A stretch of DNA of 32,575 nt, taken from positions 1-32,575 of the IMG/VR virus record IMGVR_UViG_3300009507_000066; one strand, given 5' to 3'. This DNA comes from a virus. Under the pieces are notes generated by a model. That model did no database searches, was not told the origin of the DNA, and saw nothing but the letters and a program-made list of their open reading frames with translations. Made by a program: the position numbers and the translations under genes. Shown in pieces: positions 7,254 to 31,631 of the stretch. Position 1 is the stretch's first letter. The number at the start of each line of letters is the position of its first letter.

Positions 7254-7529
7254 CTATAAGTCTTCATCTTCGTTTACATCAAAAGCAATTACCGATGGTT
7301 CGTCGGGCATTGCCAGCTCTTCGGCTACAACCGTAACTTCTACGGGCGTAGGTTCTACCGGCGTTCGCAGTGCAGAAACAACATCTGCTATACTAAACCG
7401 GTATGTATTCCCCACTTTAATAAATGTACTCGGTGGGATTTTACCCCTACGTACCCACCCCCGAATTGTTGAGGGCGATACGGAGAGATGTTTAGCGATA
7501 TCTTCGATAGGCACGTATGGGTCGCTCAT
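7254..7529 (-). CDS. Excisionase/MerR-like helix-turn-helix protein
   Basis: 91 residues. The first about 55 form a winged HTH_17/AlpA-type domain: PIEDIAKHLSVSPSTIRGWVRRGKI gives the two helices and IKVGNTYRFSIADV the wing (long strings described here only by their ends: residues 7-31 and 37-50). The tail is acidic and proline/valine rich. Relatives include phage Xis proteins and small transcription factors. No integrase lies in the window, so either excision or regulation is possible. AGGAGA precedes the ATG, overlapping the end of the previous gene. Confidence 0.75.
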   Translation of the reverse strand: MSDPYVPIEDIAKHLSVSPSTIRGWVRRGKIPPSTFIKVGNTYRFSIADVVSALRTPVEPTPVEVTVVAEELAMPDEPSVIAFDVNEDEDL

Positions 7530-16811: not shown

Positions 16812-17219
16812 TTAGTTCTCCTGTTTATAAAAAATGTGCTGCCCCAACCGTACCGTTACCTGCATACGATTTCTCCACTCGGGAAACACTGTTACTGCGT
16901 GGTACAGCGTAGCTCCATCGCTCACATCTAGCGGTGATACCAGTGCTGCGTTAGCGACGTTCTTTGATGTGGCCCACGCTTCCTCATCGGTAATGTCTTC
17001 AGGGCGTCCATCACAGTAGAACGAGAACTGACACATATGTAGTACCGGCTCTCCCCCATGCGTTGGCCCCTGCGTGATAACATCACATATGTTATCGGGA
17101 TACTTCTCACTGACTACTCGGTTTAGCACGACTTGTGCCACAGCTAGCTGTCCAGCCAACGGCTCCCCACGAGCCTCGAAGTATACGGCTACAGCCAAAC
17201 AAGTTAACGCGCTTATCAT
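16812..17219 (-). CDS. SleB-type cell-wall hydrolase (endolysin candidate)
   Basis: 135 residues, the length of a single Hydrolase_2 (SleB) domain. The signature CLAVAVYFEARGEP (7-20) holds the catalytic Glu15, followed by GQLAVAQVVLNRV (23-35), 'YPDNICDVITQ', CQFSFYCDG (63-71 region), GATLYHA and a C-terminal LGQHIFY. These enzymes are lytic transglycosylases cutting the peptidoglycan glycan backbone. There is no cleavable signal peptide and only a short hydrophobic start. Its ATG overlaps the VWA gene stop (ATGA), so it is translated with that cassette. It is probably the endolysin, though a role in wall entry or remodelling is possible. Confidence 0.88.
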   Translation of the reverse strand: MISALTCLAVAVYFEARGEPLAGQLAVAQVVLNRVVSEKYPDNICDVITQGPTHGGEPVLHMCQFSFYCDGRPEDITDEEAWATSKNVANAALVSPLDVSDGATLYHAVTVFPEWRNRMQVTVRLGQHIFYKQEN

Positions 17220-18406
17220 AACTCCCTCCCTTTTATGTGAACTACCTTACCGCTGTCAGGCGTAGCTCGTTCGTTGTCTAAGATGCACCATAGCAATGGT
17301 ATCGACCATGTGCCCCAAGCGCCAACGTACCCATCGGTCAACACTATCGCTGCTTGTGCGTTTATGCTGTGCTTCGCGATATACGCTGGCACACATGTAA
17401 CATCGGTGCCGCCCCCACCAACAGGCTTGGTGCTTGTCGCTAGACTGTCTAGCTCATTGCTCTCGTATGTCTCGTCACCACACACTGATGTATCCCAGTA
17501 CAGAAGCCGTACTCGCTCGGGGTGTACCGTGTCACACACGCCCTTGATCTCAGATAGGAACGCGGTCAACTGTCGGCTCCCGATAGACCCTGACGTGTCA
17601 ATGGCTACGACTAGCTCTCCCACTTGTTCGGTGATACCGCTCGGCATGTAGTATCCGCTACTGACGAAACGCCTGTTAGGTCGTCTCCATGTGGAGTAGT
17701 CACTGCCAGAACATGACGTAGTGATAAAGTCTCGTAGCACCTCGCGCCAATCTATCTGTGGTTTGAGTAGTTGCTCTAGGTCACGGTCACCACCGCTCCC
17801 CATCTTGCCAGCGATCAAAGCGCCTTTGCGTATCGCCTCGTCTAGATCACGTGCCAGCTCCCGTTGCTCGTCAGCGTCTAGTGATTGCGCGCCCTCCCAG
17901 TCATGCTCATCGAAGCCCTCGCCTTGACCTTGACCTTGGCCCTGACCGTCACCTTGCTCCTCATCATCTTTCAGTAAGGTGTATACCTGTGCGCTGTCCA
18001 TGCCGCGGAAGCGTGCATCCAGTAGACCGCCCTCCGGCATGACTGCGAAGCCATCCTTGTTGTCGTCGGATATCTTACAGTTGATAACATAGTCGCATGC
18101 TTGATTTGCGAGTTGAGGGTTTTCACGGTATAAATGCTCCCACGTGGTGAGATGTCTGTATAGCTTGTGATAGCTCTCATGCAAAACTAAGAACCTTAAC
18201 TGTGAGTCAGAGAGGTCAGAGACAAACTCCCTACCGTACATCTCATCACGACCATTCGTACATGCCGTGGGGACATCATCACATACCGTGCGATCACCGA
18301 TCATAAGCACACCAGCAAGCGCGACATACTTAGGGTTTGCCATGATATCGACAACGGCTTTGGATAACCGCTGCTCTACCGTTAGTGTCTTTCCCATTGC
18401 TAACAT
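17216..18406 (-). CDS. VWA-like metallopeptidase (DUF2201 type), partner of the MoxR ATPase
   Basis: 396 residues. The N-terminal domain has a zinc-metallopeptidase motif, LHESYH (75-80, HExxH), followed by ACDYVINCKISDD, as in DUF2201_N. A low-complexity Gly-Gln linker (GDGQGQGQGQGEG, 152-164) leads to a C-terminal von Willebrand A domain with MIDAS motif AIDTSGSIG (268-276), a GGGGTD motif and VLTDGY. Such proteins pair with MoxR AAA+ ATPases, the ATPase probably driving changes in a complex that the VWA protein scaffolds. AGGAGA precedes the ATG in the leader shared with the other two cassette genes. The substrate is unknown. Confidence 0.88.
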   Translation of the reverse strand: MLAMGKTLTVEQRLSKAVVDIMANPKYVALAGVLMIGDRTVCDDVPTACTNGRDEMYGREFVSDLSDSQLRFLVLHESYHKLYRHLTTWEHLYRENPQLANQACDYVINCKISDDNKDGFAVMPEGGLLDARFRGMDSAQVYTLLKDDEEQGDGQGQGQGQGEGFDEHDWEGAQSLDADEQRELARDLDEAIRKGALIAGKMGSGGDRDLEQLLKPQIDWREVLRDFITTSCSGSDYSTWRRPNRRFVSSGYYMPSGITEQVGELVVAIDTSGSIGSRQLTAFLSEIKGVCDTVHPERVRLLYWDTSVCGDETYESNELDSLATSTKPVGGGGTDVTCVPAYIAKHSINAQAAIVLTDGYVGAWGTWSIPLLWCILDNERATPDSGKVVHIKGREL

Positions 18407-18429: not shown

Positions 18430-18453
18430 GGGGTGCAGGTGTAACTGCACCCC
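18430..18453 (-). other. Intercistronic hairpin between MoxR and VWA genes
   Basis: Perfect 9-bp arms GGGGTGCAG (18430-18438) and CTGCACCCC (18445-18453) with a six-base loop. It lies between a copy of the 18-bp palindrome and the VWA ribosome-binding site. No T tract follows on the minus strand, so it probably affects mRNA stability or adjusts VWA expression relative to MoxR rather than terminating. Confidence 0.55.
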
Positions 18454-18457
18454 GTTT

Positions 18458-18475
18458 GTTAGTGAGCTCACTAAC
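18458..18475. repeat. 18-bp palindrome, copy 1 (perfect)
   Basis: GTTAGTGAGCTCACTAAC, its own reverse complement, flanked by T and A so the symmetry extends to 20 bp. It lies just after the MoxR stop codon and before the VWA gene. Confidence 0.95.
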
Positions 18476-18478
18476 ATG

Positions 18479-19576
18479 TTACGCCTTGTCTGCTGCGAAC
18501 ATGTAGTTGTTCTGCATGGCCCAGTCGGTGAACTTCCTGTTGGTCATCACCATTGACTGCTTGGAATACTTCGGATTACGTACCCCATTGGCGAACAGGC
18601 CCTGTGCTTCTTTATCGAGCCGCACCATGTAGTCCATCCATGAGTTGAGCCAAGTCTTGTCTAGACTTGCTAGTGTACGATACACCACCATACACACGGC
18701 TGCGGCACTGTCGGGCACCTTGGCACTGAGTGGGTCTTGCTTGATACTCTCCAATGACGGGAGCTGGTCGGCGAGCTTGACGAAGGCCATCAAGTCCATC
18801 GCCCCGCGATCACCGATAGTACCCATCAGTAAAGATGTCAGGGTTTGATCGTCGTACAGCGATCTCTGCTTGAGCCAGTCCGAGGCTGCTTCCAACGAGC
18901 GGGGTGTGACAAACGCTGCCCGCTGATCTCGGGGGTGGTAGATGTACGGGTTTTCTTGCGGGTCTTTGACATCCTCAAAGGACGCAAAGAGCTGCGGGTT
19001 ATCTTTTGCCCAGCCAAGTACACTGTGGTCGATGTCATTGTTGAAGCCCCATTCTATCCATTCAATGTTGTCAGGTTTACGTGCGGTGCTTACCGTCATG
19101 CGGTTACGTGCGTGGGGTGGTAACAAGTCTCCCACACCCTCCGCGCCGAGGTTGGTGGTCGCGAATACTATGCTGTCCTCATGCAGCGTGTAGCTCCCGA
19201 TCTTGCGCTCAAGCATAAGTCTAAGCATTGAGTTCTTAACAGCGGGGTTGGCCTTGCCGTACTCATCAACCATCAGGATGATCGGCCCATTGATATGCGC
19301 GCCAAGCTCCTCGTTGGTAGCATACGTGACGTAGTCGCTACCCTCGCTATCCAGCGTAGCAAGTTTGGGTATGCTGATATCCCCCAAGTCCTTGGTCGTG
19401 CAGTCGAAGTAGCACGGGGTATGCGTGGGAAGTTCCTTGGCTAAGGTCTTGAGCAACGAGCTCTTGCCCGTGCCCATGTGACCCTGTATCAGGACCGTCC
19501 GCTTGTTGCCGCCATGCCGTATGGCTGTGGCGATCTGGTCGAGGTTGAGTGCGTACATTTGCTGTGCGTTTGTCAT
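18479..19576 (-). CDS. MoxR-like AAA+ ATPase
   Basis: 365 residues from the chosen start. GHMGTGKS (32-39) is Walker A, LMVDEYGKA (101-109) Walker B, FATTN (138-142) sensor 1, and PPHARNRM (153-160) holds the arginine-finger region. The order and spacing match the MoxR/RavA/dynein-related branch. It should form a hexameric ring acting with the VWA protein encoded next. The ATG with AGGAGA and the leader ending GTTATGACA was preferred; a start 19 codons earlier lies within the preceding gene. Composition appears richer in G+C than the polA region, by hand count of a few lines only. Confidence 0.9.
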   Translation of the reverse strand: MTNAQQMYALNLDQIATAIRHGGNKRTVLIQGHMGTGKSSLLKTLAKELPTHTPCYFDCTTKDLGDISIPKLATLDSEGSDYVTYATNEELGAHINGPIILMVDEYGKANPAVKNSMLRLMLERKIGSYTLHEDSIVFATTNLGAEGVGDLLPPHARNRMTVSTARKPDNIEWIEWGFNNDIDHSVLGWAKDNPQLFASFEDVKDPQENPYIYHPRDQRAAFVTPRSLEAASDWLKQRSLYDDQTLTSLLMGTIGDRGAMDLMAFVKLADQLPSLESIKQDPLSAKVPDSAAAVCMVVYRTLASLDKTWLNSWMDYMVRLDKEAQGLFANGVRNPKYSKQSMVMTNRKFTDWAMQNNYMFAADKA

Positions 19577-19598
19577 AACATGTTCTCCTGTTGTGTTA

Positions 19599-20531
19599 TT
19601 AGATATCAAGTGATGGAAGTGAAGCGATAGCACTATCTACCGCCCGTTTGGTTTCGGCGCGAAGGTAGTTGTCCTCACGCAACGCGTCTGGCGTAATGCC
19701 TCGTAACGCGTTATCCAGATCATTCTTGATCTTGGACATCTGGCTGTCCTGTGTAATGTTGCAAACATCGAGTAGATCGATCATCTCAACTACGTTGTCT
19801 ACTAACGAGTCACGGAACACTTTCTTGGTCTCGGCCCCTGCGTAGTCGAGGCGCTCTGACATTGCGCTAAGTGCTTTGTGTGTGCGCTGCCATACATCGT
19901 TCATGGCATTAGTAAGTTGACGCGAGTAGTAATCCTTGTAATGCGCCTTGATCTGCTCGTTACCCTCGTTGCCGATATCGACGCGAAAGTCACCAGCCTC
20001 TGGCAATGGGATGTAGGAAAGGCGGAACGCGAATTTGTTAGTGAGCTCACTAACAGTCGGATAGTCAGTACTCAGGAACAAGTCACCAAGCGATGCTTGC
20101 GCGCTGCTAAGCTCCCAGTCGTACTCGGCAATGCACTCGTCGCGAAGTGTCTCCCATGCTGTCTGCATTTCAGTCATCTGTTGGTGATACTTGAAATACT
20201 TTGCGGTCGCTACCAGACGCAGCCCAGTGTCGGACCATGGCATTGTCATACTATAGTGCGCGTTTCGGATGCTGCCTGTTAACTTGTGCAGGGCGTCGAG
20301 CTTCTCCCATTTGCCCATCAGCTTCTTGTTGACTGATGCAACCCCGTTGTCCGCGTAATTGCGAGAGGTAACATCTGAACTGGCGCGCTTGTCTTTCTTA
20401 CGTCCTGTCCACTGTGAGATGCTAAGCTCCACCAACATGGCTGACGAGGCGATGCTTGAGACATCATTGTTAGTGAGCTCACTAACAAACTCACCTGACT
20501 GAACTGATAACGTGCTTAATTGACTTGTCAT
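19599..20531 (-). CDS. Third protein of the MoxR/VWA cassette, unknown, with two VSELTN insertions
   Basis: 310 residues, mainly helical and charged, with no cofactor or nucleotide motif. It is directly upstream of the MoxR gene and shares with it an almost identical start region (AGGAGAACA..GTTATGACA), so it is part of the same unit. The sequence VSELTN occurs twice, near residue 16 and near residue 170, and each is encoded by a copy of the 18-bp palindrome. Phage MoxR-VWA pairs often have a third helical partner; this fits that slot but I do not recognise a family. The upstream ATG 13 codons earlier lacks a comparable ribosome site. Confidence 0.75.
   Translation of the reverse strand: MTSQLSTLSVQSGEFVSELTNNDVSSIASSAMLVELSISQWTGRKKDKRASSDVTSRNYADNGVASVNKKLMGKWEKLDALHKLTGSIRNAHYSMTMPWSDTGLRLVATAKYFKYHQQMTEMQTAWETLRDECIAEYDWELSSAQASLGDLFLSTDYPTVSELTNKFAFRLSYIPLPEAGDFRVDIGNEGNEQIKAHYKDYYSRQLTNAMNDVWQRTHKALSAMSERLDYAGAETKKVFRDSLVDNVVEMIDLLDVCNITQDSQMSKIKNDLDNALRGITPDALREDNYLRAETKRAVDSAIASLPSLDI
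20037..20054. repeat. 18-bp palindrome, copy 2 (perfect, intragenic)
   Basis: The same perfect palindrome, with T and A flanks, within the 310-aa gene where it reads VSELTN. Confidence 0.95.
20469..20486. repeat. 18-bp palindrome, copy 3 (perfect, intragenic)
   Basis: Perfect copy within the first 65 bases of the 310-aa gene, again in the frame reading VSELTN. It is about 95 bp downstream of the predicted promoter, where bound protein could block transcription. Confidence 0.95.
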
Positions 20532-20550
20532 AACGTGTTCTCCTGTATGT

Positions 20551-20571
20551 GTTGATAGACTATCCATCAAC
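20551..20571. promoter_or_regulatory. Imperfect inverted repeat in the cassette leader (possible operator)
   Basis: GTTGAT and ATCAAC arms (20551-20556, 20566-20571) around GACTAT form a nearly symmetric 21-bp site between the -10 box and the ribosome-binding site of the 310-aa gene. It could be an operator or a weak leader hairpin. Confidence 0.45.
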
Positions 20572-20578
20572 TGTAGTA

Positions 20579-20607
20579 AGTGTAGCAGATGTGTCGGGGT
20601 ATGTCAA
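20579..20607 (-). promoter_or_regulatory. Near-consensus sigma-70 promoter for the MoxR/VWA cassette
   Basis: On the minus strand TTGACA (20607-20602) lies exactly 17 bases from TACACT (20584-20579), about 48 bp before the ATG of the 310-aa gene. A second TGTCAAGG occurs 20 bp further upstream (20622-20629). It is the best promoter for the start of the long leftward transcript. Confidence 0.7.
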
Positions 20608-20631
20608 GGTTTATCAGGACGTGTCAAGGTG

Positions 20632-20661
20632 TGTAATGTTCTGTAATGTTCTGTAATGTTC
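20632..20661. repeat. Tandem 10-bp repeat, three copies
   Basis: TGTAATGTTC is repeated three times head to tail, one copy per helical turn, so a bound protein would contact one face of the DNA. Related AATGTT words recur nearby. Iteron-like. Confidence 0.85.
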
Positions 20662-20927
20662 TTTAGTGGGGGCTGGCAAGTCATTGATAACAAAGTAATG
20701 TTGCAATGTTGCTGTTTTTCGTGATTTTAAGTGTACGGCAAAGAGGGGGACGGAGGGACGGAACAAAGGCGTTTGGGAATTAGGTAATCACATAGTTTTT
20801 TCAATTTGCAACATTATACTATATATATATAATAATAAACTAAACTGCACGTTTTGATAAGCAAACAATTCCACACCTTGCAAAACCCTGCCATGTTTTG
20901 GCATGAAACTATAATGTTCCCTCGGCT

Positions 20928-20959
20928 TGCTACATTAGGTCCATTTCTGCTACATTAGG
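20928..20959. repeat. 12-bp direct repeat pair
   Basis: TGCTACATTAGG occurs at 20928-20939 and 20948-20959, start to start 20 bp (two helical turns). Confidence 0.8.
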
Positions 20960-20994
20960 CGCGAAAAAAAAAGAACATCGTTTAGTATCAACAT

Positions 20995-21012
20995 GTTAGT
21001 GAGCTCACTAAC
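20995..21012. repeat. 18-bp palindrome, copy 4 (perfect)
   Basis: Perfect copy in non-coding DNA, 38 bp before the first 30-bp direct repeat. Confidence 0.95.
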
Positions 21013-21050
21013 AGAACAATCAAAAGAACATTGCATGTTTTCAATGACTT

Positions 21051-21080
21051 GGGCTCGACGCGACGACAAGAACTGGTATC
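21051..21080. repeat. 30-bp direct repeat R1
   Basis: Begins GGGCTCGACGCGACGA and continues CAAGAACTGGTATC. It differs from R2 and R3 at two positions. Same orientation as the others. Confidence 0.9.
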
Positions 21081-21115
21081 GATAGGCGACTACTACATAA
21101 TATACAGGGTAACTT

Positions 21116-21133
21116 GTTAGTGTGCTCACTAAC
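21116..21133. repeat. 18-bp palindrome, copy 5 (one mismatch)
   Basis: GTTAGTGTGCTCACTAAC, with T instead of A at the centre, so symmetry is broken at one position. It sits between R1 and R2 of the 30-bp repeat. Confidence 0.9.
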
Positions 21134-21141
21134 ATCCGCGT

Positions 21142-21171
21142 GGGCTCGACGCGACGATAAGAACTGGTTTC
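21142..21171. repeat. 30-bp direct repeat R2
   Basis: Begins GGGCTCGACGCGACGA and continues TAAGAACTGGTTTC. Identical to R3 across 30 bp; start-to-start distance to R3 is 56 bp and from R1 is 91 bp. Confidence 0.9.
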
Positions 21172-21197
21172 TTTCCGCGCCGAAATCAGCGGGGTAT

Positions 21198-21227
21198 GGG
21201 CTCGACGCGACGATAAGAACTGGTTTC
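21198..21227. repeat. 30-bp direct repeat R3
   Basis: Identical to R2. It lies about 8 bp before the T-tract side of a leftward terminator, at the edge of the gene-free region. Confidence 0.9.
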
Positions 21228-21235
21228 AAAGAGAC

Positions 21236-21264
21236 AAAAAAAGGGCCAGCCCGAAGGCCAGCCC
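21236..21264 (-). terminator. Leftward rho-independent terminator
   Basis: On the minus strand GGGCTGGCC, a TTCG loop, then GGCTGGCCC form a 9-pair stem (two G-U pairs) followed by seven T residues. It closes the short transcript carrying the 180-aa and 55-aa genes and shields the repeat region from read-through. Confidence 0.85.
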
Positions 21265-21270
21265 TAGATG

Positions 21271-21438
21271 TTAACGTCTTAGTGTGGAGCGAAATGCCAT
21301 GCAGATAAATTGTGATCCAACAACTAACACGCCCAATGCGATCCAATTACCACTGGGTGCCAGATCATACAATGCGAGCAGCACGGCAATGGTGCCGAGC
21401 ACGGCGAAAATAAATGTGAGAAGTTTGTTGATGTCCAT
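21271..21438 (-). CDS. 55-aa two-pass membrane protein
   Basis: A short gene, below the usual ORF cutoff, with AAGGAAAA ahead of its ATG. Residues 7-25 (LTFIFAVLGTIAVLLALYD) and about 33-48 (IALGVLVVGSQFICMA) form two membrane helices joined by a short polar turn. The tail is basic (FRSTLRR). Stop and terminator are seven bases apart, and a second hairpin lies just upstream. The layout resembles small class II holins (two helices, basic C-terminus), but other small inner-membrane proteins look the same, and the SleB-type hydrolase is 4 kb away. The reading frame and signals are clear; function is open. Confidence 0.65.
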   Translation of the reverse strand: MDINKLLTFIFAVLGTIAVLLALYDLAPSGNWIALGVLVVGSQFICMAFRSTLRR

Positions 21439-21450
21439 AATAGTTTTCCT

Positions 21451-21482
21451 TAGAAAAGCGGGTCCGGCATTGTGCCGGACCC
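21451..21482 (-). terminator. Leftward hairpin/terminator after the 180-aa gene
   Basis: Perfect 10-bp arms GGGTCCGGCA (21460-21469) and TGCCGGACCC (21473-21482) with a 3-base loop, followed on the minus strand by GCTTTTC. The short T tract suggests partial termination, so the 55-aa gene would get fewer transcripts than the 180-aa gene. Confidence 0.65.
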
Positions 21483-21489
21483 TGAGATG

Positions 21490-22032
21490 TTAGGCCTTGG
21501 TCGATAGCGCTTTGGTTAGTTGAACTAGTTGGTGTCTAACCTCGATGATATCGAATGTCGCGCCTTCACTTTTTTCTAAGCGCTTAAGCATTGCGGCCAC
21601 TCGTTCTAGGCAGAACGTCTTGTCGTCTGTCCGCTTGTCTGCCCCCTTGGTCTTAGACTTGGGGCTCAGGTAGTTTTCAAACGAGGTCTGGTAATCATTC
21701 CGCTTTGCCCCGATCTGCATCTGCGCTGTCCTACGCGCCGCCTTCTGGTTATCATCCAGAGACTTGATTGGTGCCGCCAGTAGTTTTTGGTCCGCCTTCT
21801 CAAATCCTGCAATGATTGCCGCGTTTAACTTGTCGAAAAAGCGCGTATGCAGCGTTTCACCTTCTTTGCCCGGTGATTTGAACCATTGGGCTTTTACGCC
21901 GTCCGCTTTGAACGCGTCATTAATGATCACGCGGCCGCCAGCCAATTTACGCTCGGCTTTTCCCTCGGCCGTGATTAAAGTGAACACGTTAACCTTGGCC
22001 GTCTTGGCCGTCTTGGTTGTCTTGGTTGTCAT
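21490..22032 (-). CDS. Unknown 180-aa protein
   Basis: Starts at an ATG with AGGAG 8 bases upstream; an in-frame ATG 36 codons earlier would begin inside a region with palindromes and no ribosome site. The N-terminus is a Thr/Lys repeat (TTKTTKTAKTAK). After that the protein is basic and helical, with KTKGADKRTDDKTFCLERVAAML-like charged segments (residues ~128-150, described by their ends) and one cysteine. No recognised motif. It is the first gene of a short leftward unit with the 55-aa membrane protein. A palindrome copy lies 115 bp upstream of its start, near a weak promoter-like TTGTTT-17-TCTATA, so it may be controlled by the palindrome-binding factor. Confidence 0.65.
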   Translation of the reverse strand: MTTKTTKTAKTAKVNVFTLITAEGKAERKLAGGRVIINDAFKADGVKAQWFKSPGKEGETLHTRFFDKLNAAIIAGFEKADQKLLAAPIKSLDDNQKAARRTAQMQIGAKRNDYQTSFENYLSPKSKTKGADKRTDDKTFCLERVAAMLKRLEKSEGATFDIIEVRHQLVQLTKALSTKA

Positions 22033-22055
22033 AGTATAGACTCCTGTTATCGCGA

Positions 22056-22070
22056 GCCACACAATGTGGC
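22056..22070 (-). other. Leader hairpin before the 180-aa gene
   Basis: GCCACA and TGTGGC arms with a 3-base loop lie about 25 bp before the ATG and 11 bp from the AGGAG motif. It may modulate translation; the stem is only six pairs. Confidence 0.4.
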
Positions 22071-22148
22071 CCGTTCGATAGATACACACTAACAGGTTAT
22101 GACGTGATGTATATAGATAGATTGGCATAAGACTAAACAAAAATGAAT

Positions 22149-22166
22149 GTTAGTGAGCTCACTAAC
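22149..22166. repeat. 18-bp palindrome, copy 6 (perfect)
   Basis: Perfect copy upstream of the 180-aa gene, immediately before a promoter-like sequence on the minus strand. Confidence 0.95.
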
Positions 22167-31018: not shown

Positions 31019-31082
31019 GTATACTAACTCATCCCTGACAGTTACATTGTGTAGCTGACACCAGCCAAGACAGGAGATACTC

Positions 31083-31631
31083 ATGGCTAATACGACTTTT
31101 AATGGTCCCGTCCGTTCAGTGAACGGCTTTAAAGTTATCAATGAGAACGCAACTACAGGAGCTATTACTGAGACTTCTTCTGTTGCTTCTACAGGCGTTT
31201 TTACCAATAAATATATTAAGCACGTTGGTTATGCTACAGGCGTAACAGTGAACACTACTGCTGGCGACAGCCCTACTATTGGAGAGTTCACCCAACCAGC
31301 AAATACGATCCTCACAGCTATTACTATTTTCTGCGATGTAGCCCCTGTTATTGGAACGGGCGATATCGGCTACGAGGTTGGTACATCTAGCTCTGGCGCT
31401 CAGATTGTTGCTGCGGTTGCAGATGAAATCTTGGATGGCGGCACGACCGTTGTTGTAGGCAACACCACGCTTACTGCACTAGTCCAAACAACTCAAAATG
31501 CGGCAACAGCCCCTGTCTCTGCGCAATATACTTCTGCAGAAAGAACTATCTACTGCAACATCACAAATACTGTAAATGCGACAACAGCAGGTTCGTTTAC
31601 CTTTATTATTGAGTACACTCAGATTGCTTAA
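31083..31631 (+). CDS. Virion structural protein (beta-rich)
   Basis: 182 residues, Thr/Ala/Gly/Val rich with alternating strands (TGVTVNTTAGDSPTIGEF, TVVVGNTTLTALVQTTQN). No charged-helix or enzymatic motif. This composition is typical of head or tail surface proteins, and it follows the capsid gene in the structural block. AGGAGA lies 6 bases before the ATG. The exact role (decoration, neck, tail) is unknown. Confidence 0.6.
   Translation: MANTTFNGPVRSVNGFKVINENATTGAITETSSVASTGVFTNKYIKHVGYATGVTVNTTAGDSPTIGEFTQPANTILTAITIFCDVAPVIGTGDIGYEVGTSSSGAQIVAAVADEILDGGTTVVVGNTTLTALVQTTQNAATAPVSAQYTSAERTIYCNITNTVNATTAGSFTFIIEYTQIA

Follow-up and report, generated by a model that had tools for sequence, protein, structure and literature searches.

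Cluster A mycobacteriophages such as L5, Bxb1 and Trixie carry 20–30 stoperators per genome, located mostly away from promoters, and a repressor bound to them stops elongation; the site version is particular to each genome and matched to that genome's own DNA-binding protein, and the distance between motifs tracks the distance between repressors (PMC6550527). Stoperators are 13-bp asymmetric sequences of temperate phages and are bound by a monomeric two-domain repressor (PMC9283540). Another class of repeated elements, the extended start-associated sequences (ESAS) of cluster K mycobacteriophages, consists of inverted repeats that shortly precede translation starts and whose consensus varies by phage subgroup; they have 17-bp imperfect arms with spacers mostly of 4–13 bp and are tied to the 13-bp start-associated sequence (SAS) motif GGGATAGGAGCCC (PMC3203893). 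The present analysis concerns an array of short palindromes in a virus fragment of 32.6 kb (IMG/VR record IMGVR_UViG_3300009507_000066), whose whole length of 32,575 nucleotides is referred to as the window, together with the counterparts of this array in related phages and a phage-encoded 180-aa protein that is predicted to bind it.

As in the case of stoperators, the sites are multi-copy and phage-specific, covariation being here the link to a phage protein, and many of them lie between a stop codon and a ribosome-binding site inside an operon, far from promoters. In contrast to stoperators, which are oriented with transcription, they are palindromes of 17–18 bp whose asymmetry is limited to flanks and spacer, they number about 5–13 per phage and belong to one operon only, the protein has no detected relation to known families, and no tyrosine integrase was found in nine records (control positive in 14/14), other integrase types and extrachromosomal prophages not having been searched. 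The array resembles ESAS in its inverted repeats just upstream of starts and in a consensus that differs among phages; however, the arms are near-perfect and of 7 bp, the spacer is of 3–4 bp, a cognate protein is proposed, and no conserved motif that could act as a SAS-like partner occurs at a fixed distance downstream of the sites. Because each of the two systems differs in defining points, the array is filed under neither. N4-type hairpin promoters are also short hairpin-forming repeats in the early region, and a MoxR-type ATPase is found in N4-like phages too; in contrast, the repeats described here occur in about 8–13 copies at gene boundaries, and a search of eight genomes for a T7/N4-type RNA polymerase gave no match, the control being also silent and the absence therefore unproven. 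No earlier description of the present array was found in the open-access literature.

Palindromes and dialects

The initial annotation of the window reported five exact copies of the palindrome GTTAGTGAGCTCACTAAC, one copy with a single mismatch, and none elsewhere; all six sites were verified (Table 1), and 0 further matches are present in the window at up to 3 mismatches. The number of copies is indeed beyond chance (0.01 expected from dinucleotide shuffles, 5e-7 exact copies expected from base composition), and the symmetry extends, as had been proposed, to the 20-bp dyad TGTTAGTGAGCTCACTAACA at 5/5 exact copies, reaching 22 bp at 20468. Contig L006, which is near-identical to the window, has the same six sites with equal spacing. 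The 18-bp word is thus real, but it is merely one dialect of a family-wide site, a point that the initial annotation missed.

In IMG/VR, 292 relatives of the MoxR protein were identified, the best 80 loci of which (with the window and L005) were used for word counts; two further MoxR queries gave a total of about 200 loci, which include overlapping copies of the same contig. The counts in the best 80 were 376 for GTTAG-N7-CTAAC and 137 for GTTAG-N8-CTAAC, compared with about three for control patterns, and the loci lacking this palindrome have another one in the same places, such as GTTATAC..GTATAAC, TTTAGGG..CCCTAAA or GTTATAG..CTATAAC. A word-free de novo search of the about 200 loci identified a single dominant 7-bp arm in nearly every contig, including the further arms TTTACGG, TTTACGC, TTCGGGC, GTTATGC and TGTAGTG. 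The arms vary among phages (GTTAGTG, GTTAGGG, GTTAGTC, GTTATAC, TTTAGGG, TTCGGGC and others) and agree inside each phage, where positions 2–5 are almost invariant. The unit is a 7-bp half-site and its mirror, separated by a 3- or 4-bp spacer (non-redundant counts: 371 for 3 bp, 249 for 4 bp, 6 for 5 bp, 0 for 2 bp and 0 for 6 bp), with half-site centres 10 or 11 bp apart, namely one turn of B-DNA. A search of GTDB bacterial genomes gave no relative of this phage's MoxR protein; among isolates, a 22-kb megablast query gave no match, and the MoxR matches are all <60% identical.

In eight contigs of 59–67 kb, the sites are confined to the leftward operon and its leader, from roughly 4 kb before to 13 kb after the MoxR start. 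Intergenic positions account for 62% of the sites vs 18% of random places in the same stretch, and a start codon is located 5–60 nt downstream of 38% of the sites vs 7% of random places, with a peak at 10–25 nt; most sites fall in the gap that separates a stop codon from the following ribosome-binding site. The recurrent places are upstream of the 180-aa gene, in the noncoding interval behind it, and at the starts of the DUF3150-like, MoxR and VWA genes. In particular, the position of site 1 upstream of the 180-aa gene is kept in most checkable relatives, and the site in the N-terminal part of the DUF3150-like gene has counterparts at the same place that read as different amino acids. Operator-type sites of a dimeric regulator, which the initial annotation had listed among its candidates, are supported, and their position is conserved in related phages. 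A promoter-like positional signal is absent, as no -10/-35 box is found at a fixed distance within 70 nt either side of 390 sites; a sigma-70 operator/promoter unit was rejected on this ground.

The 180-aa protein and the exchange of dialects

The 180-aa gene had been listed initially as a location only, and its role as the source of the likely cognate protein was missed. To judge from sequence comparison, its product covaries with the dialect and behaves as a specificity determinant should. Between G004 (GTTAGGG) and G005 (GTTATAC) the 180-aa protein is 33% identical, whereas MoxR, TerL, portal, PolA and helicase are 93–98% identical and most core genes 88–98%; between G005 and G006, which share one dialect, the 180-aa protein is 92% identical. 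Residue D113 ranks first of 1,239 alignment columns (four proteins) for predicting arm base 7, a rank that is suggestive rather than a clean p-value because the association was spotted first and tested later. In 61 distinct sequences, the residue is D in 50/52 when arm base 7 is G and K or Q in 9/9 when it is C, and the proteins of the TTTAGGG (second clade) and TTCGGGC dialects, added later, match this pattern. Contacts of Asp with cytosine and of Lys with guanine are frequent in protein–DNA complexes. The excess identity of same-dialect pairs over the overall expectation peaks at residues 49–60 and 103–120; in an AlphaFold2 model, which is all-alpha (pLDDT 88), the latter stretch lies inside a long helix of residues 94–122. 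A classical helix-turn-helix reading of the motif IGAKRND was dropped because the model places it inside one long helix. It is quite probable that the palindromes are bound by the 180-aa protein.

The gene and its local sites have also been exchanged in nature. Contigs L224 and L233 are 85% identical until just before the first site and 81% identical from the DUF3150-like gene on, but the block holding the 180-aa gene is unrelated save for a 400-bp patch; in L224 the sites inside the swapped block are TGTAGTG and those beyond it are still GTTAGTC, as in L233. L224 is a natural recombinant in which the 180-aa gene was exchanged along with its local sites. Three further contigs (L064, L172 and L181) are 97–99% identical and have at one site GTTATGCCACGGCATAAC in two cases and GTTAGTCCACGGACTAAC in the third, with flanks that are the same bar a few bases; the change is symmetric, from GTTATGC to GTTAGTC. 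The pattern is reversed at the next site, and neighbouring sites therefore change separately. L224 and this trio, which carry two dialects at once, were apparently caught in the middle of a change of specificity.

Proposed mode of action and alternative explanations

The palindromes would be double-stranded DNA sites, each composed of two 7-bp half-sites, for the product of the 180-aa gene, which probably binds as a dimer. The site upstream of the gene suggests autoregulation, and further sites would be bound along the leftward early/replication operon, both within the noncoding interval and in the short gaps between stop codons and ribosome-binding sites. The bound protein would most likely damp or block leftward transcription at many points, as a stoperator-like roadblock in addition to an operator, and protein and sites would evolve together, generating a private dialect for each phage. 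Binding, dimerisation and repression are inferred here; the whole reading, in which the phage makes a DNA-binding protein of no recognised family that controls its own gene and acts on a stoperator-like array of operators, is on balance the one we favour, and the chances that negative control of transcription is the main effect of the protein are about even. Since neither a tyrosine integrase nor ParA was found, lysogen immunity and partition seem less likely than control of early transcription in lytic growth. A more specific proposal is tentative: the protein may represent an undescribed all-alpha family of phage DNA-binding proteins in which a long helix reads the 7-bp half-sites, Asp going with arm base G and Lys/Gln with C, which would exert stoperator-like control of elongation in apparently lytic aquatic phages and be exchanged together with local sites, the remaining sites being re-spelled one by one.

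Several observations weigh against such a regulator. The GTTAGTG sites are asymmetric, with A at +1 in 98–100% and T at -1 in 34% (close to ribosome-binding sites) to 81% (others), and some spacers are strand-biased (ACA vs TGT, 29 to 1); the asymmetry may be partly due to stop codons abutting the left arm. Site 1 is located upstream of a clear TTGACA box and not over it in L047 and L055. As to residue 113, L048 (Q) and L175 (G) are exceptions among the arms ending in G, the distant TTTACGG/TTTACGC clade departs from the D/K pattern, and arm base 7 switched independently only three times on the trees, so that a sign test cannot reach significance. Moreover, the 180-aa protein has no convincing match in Pfam, PHROGs or PDB sequences, and a fold search of the PDB gave nothing above noise (Foldseek best E 1.3; VIA-align uninformative at Z 6.3 or less). 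One weak fold match is the uncharacterised viral protein A0A6J5RDQ4 (E 9e-3), and the phage isolate collection has no detectable relative.

The array could also be a centromere-like or origin-binding set that serves to initiate replication, to partition the DNA or to organise it, in which case the 180-aa protein would be an initiator or an adaptor of the ParB type. The sites centre on a repeat-rich noncoding interval, cumulative GC skew reaches its minimum close to the array in the window as well as in G001 and G005, and sites are tolerated in coding DNA; however, no skew minimum is found at the array of G008, the sites are distributed over about 8–15 kb at gene boundaries and not as tandem iterons, and the 180-aa protein has no match to a ParB or initiator family. 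The parS-like sites suggested by the initial annotation are not sustained in the classical sense, as no ParA-type ATPase was found in the eight related genomes (no PF13614 match in nine records, with a positive control), nor was a tyrosine integrase. We regard this explanation as unlikely.

Slightly less likely still is a function as RNA hairpin: a 7-bp stem with a 3–4 nt loop, adjacent to ribosome-binding sites, would be recognised by a protein or would take part in mRNA processing or in the control of translation. The peak of sites 10–25 nt upstream of start codons, the nearly invariant 3' A and the strand bias of certain spacers would suit it. In contrast, the arm sequence is conserved and the loop free, which is the opposite of most RNA hairpin targets. 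In fact, among the sites with a mismatch in a single arm, 50/55 destroy the hairpin base pair and 4/55 keep a G-U wobble in the sense RNA, and symmetric double changes number 1 vs 63 single mismatches; a structured RNA hairpin element was rejected, since pair-breaking variants prevail over the compensatory changes and tolerated wobbles that would keep such a stem. The spacer is the self-complementary AATT in every copy of two arrays (9/9 in G001 and 9/9 in L166). Constant arms, a free spacer and pair-breaking mismatches fit half-sites of which each is read on its own by one half of a dimer.

It is improbable that the palindromes are intergenic linkers serving mainly as recombination points for gene cassettes: they do lie at gene boundaries, and a swap of a gene block beside them is observed, but dialect-wide uniformity and symmetric changes in place within nearly identical flanks need a factor that reads the sequence, and homology alone would not maintain the dyad. 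It is more improbable again that the sites are a host repeat or operators for a regulator of the host; the size of the palindromes is that of operators in general, but dialects differ among phages that are 88–98% identical in core genes and covary with a phage gene, and the MoxR protein has no relative in GTDB. The XRE protein of the window, an HTH_3 protein that the initial annotation regarded as the only obvious candidate regulator, can practically be dismissed, since no homologue exists in eight related full-length genomes and ten further loci that carry sites. A 91-aa HTH_17/MerR-like protein (window 7254–7529) is present in 9/9 genomes with a nearly constant DNA-reading part; it was rejected, as the compared 56-residue helix-turn-helix domain differs at one residue between G004 and G005.

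Gene neighbourhood and implications

The sites of the window and the genes around them are collected in Table 1.

Table 1. Palindromic sites and neighbouring features in the window
Feature	Coordinates	Strand	Remarks
Site 1, exact palindrome	22149..22166		Start codon of the 180-aa gene lies 116 nt downstream
One-mismatch site	21116..21133		Spacer AGCA (operon sense) replacing AGCT; arms intact
Exact site	20995..21012		Noncoding interval separating c27 from the DUF3150-like gene
Exact site	20469..20486		Coding, N-terminal part of the DUF3150-like gene; reads VSELTN
Exact site	20037..20054		Mid DUF3150-like gene; reads VSELTN
Exact site	18458..18475		Directly follows the MoxR stop codon and lies upstream of the VWA gene
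180-aa gene (c27), predicted site-binding protein	21490..22032	-	First gene of the leftward operon
DUF3150-like gene, 310 aa	19599..20531	-	Pfam PF11348 E 7.5e-4, short of the curated cut-off
MoxR-type AAA ATPase	18479..19576	-	phrog_1297 E 3e-45
VWA/DUF2201 gene	17216..18406	-	Pfam PF13203 and PF09967
Mostly noncoding interval	20538..21270		Two sites, AT-rich stretch, three copies of a second 31-bp repeat

The noncoding interval is a possible origin or control region. The second repeat, of about 31 bp (GAAACCAGTTCTTATCGTCGCGTCGAGCCCA, minus strand), has its three copies at window 21050–21227 and starts in relatives about 5 nt past the palindromes between the 180-aa and DUF3150-like genes; it is possibly an origin or promoter. 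Between TerS and site 1, the segment 22180–22330 is G-rich and rich in inverted repeats, with similar sequences in many relatives (GGGACTCC..., GGGGGTAGGGTAGGG), and may be a pac or origin element. A GC-rich hairpin, GGGGTGCAG...CTGCACCCC, is located at window 18430–18453, between a palindrome and the VWA start, and a similar one is present in L010. At position 7094 of L172, the palindrome apparently provides the stop codon of MoxR (CGT TAG inside GTTAGTC). At window 31033–31085, just ahead of an open reading frame at 31083, there is an Rfam match to Mu-gpT-DE RNA (70.8 bits).

A comparable arrangement is found in the cultivated Synechococcus phage MinM2 (OQ594354; L238/L240), which has 22 palindromes GGTTCA-N3-TGAACC of 15 bp, one with a longer spacer, many of them directly upstream of ribosome-binding sites. 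MinM2 shares the MoxR, DUF3150 and VWA genes, and the first of its leftward genes, which has a site upstream, codes for a 187-aa protein; in contrast, its arms are others, of 6 bp with a 3-nt spacer, and sites occur among structural genes too. MinM2 has no detectable relative of the 180-aa protein, and its 187-aa protein has no detectable sequence homology to the 180-aa family. As a cultivated phage, it could serve to test the general arrangement.

In the phages described here, a regulator and its target sites would have changed together, and the record of this is unusually easy to read. If the proposed reading is true, about ten dialects, hundreds of sites and many cognate proteins would constitute a natural series on the joint change of specificity, including contigs in the middle of that change, and a function would be named for an unannotated gene family. 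It would also hint at how a widespread group of uncultivated phages times its early genes with neither an integrase-linked repressor nor, to the extent testable, an RNA polymerase of its own.

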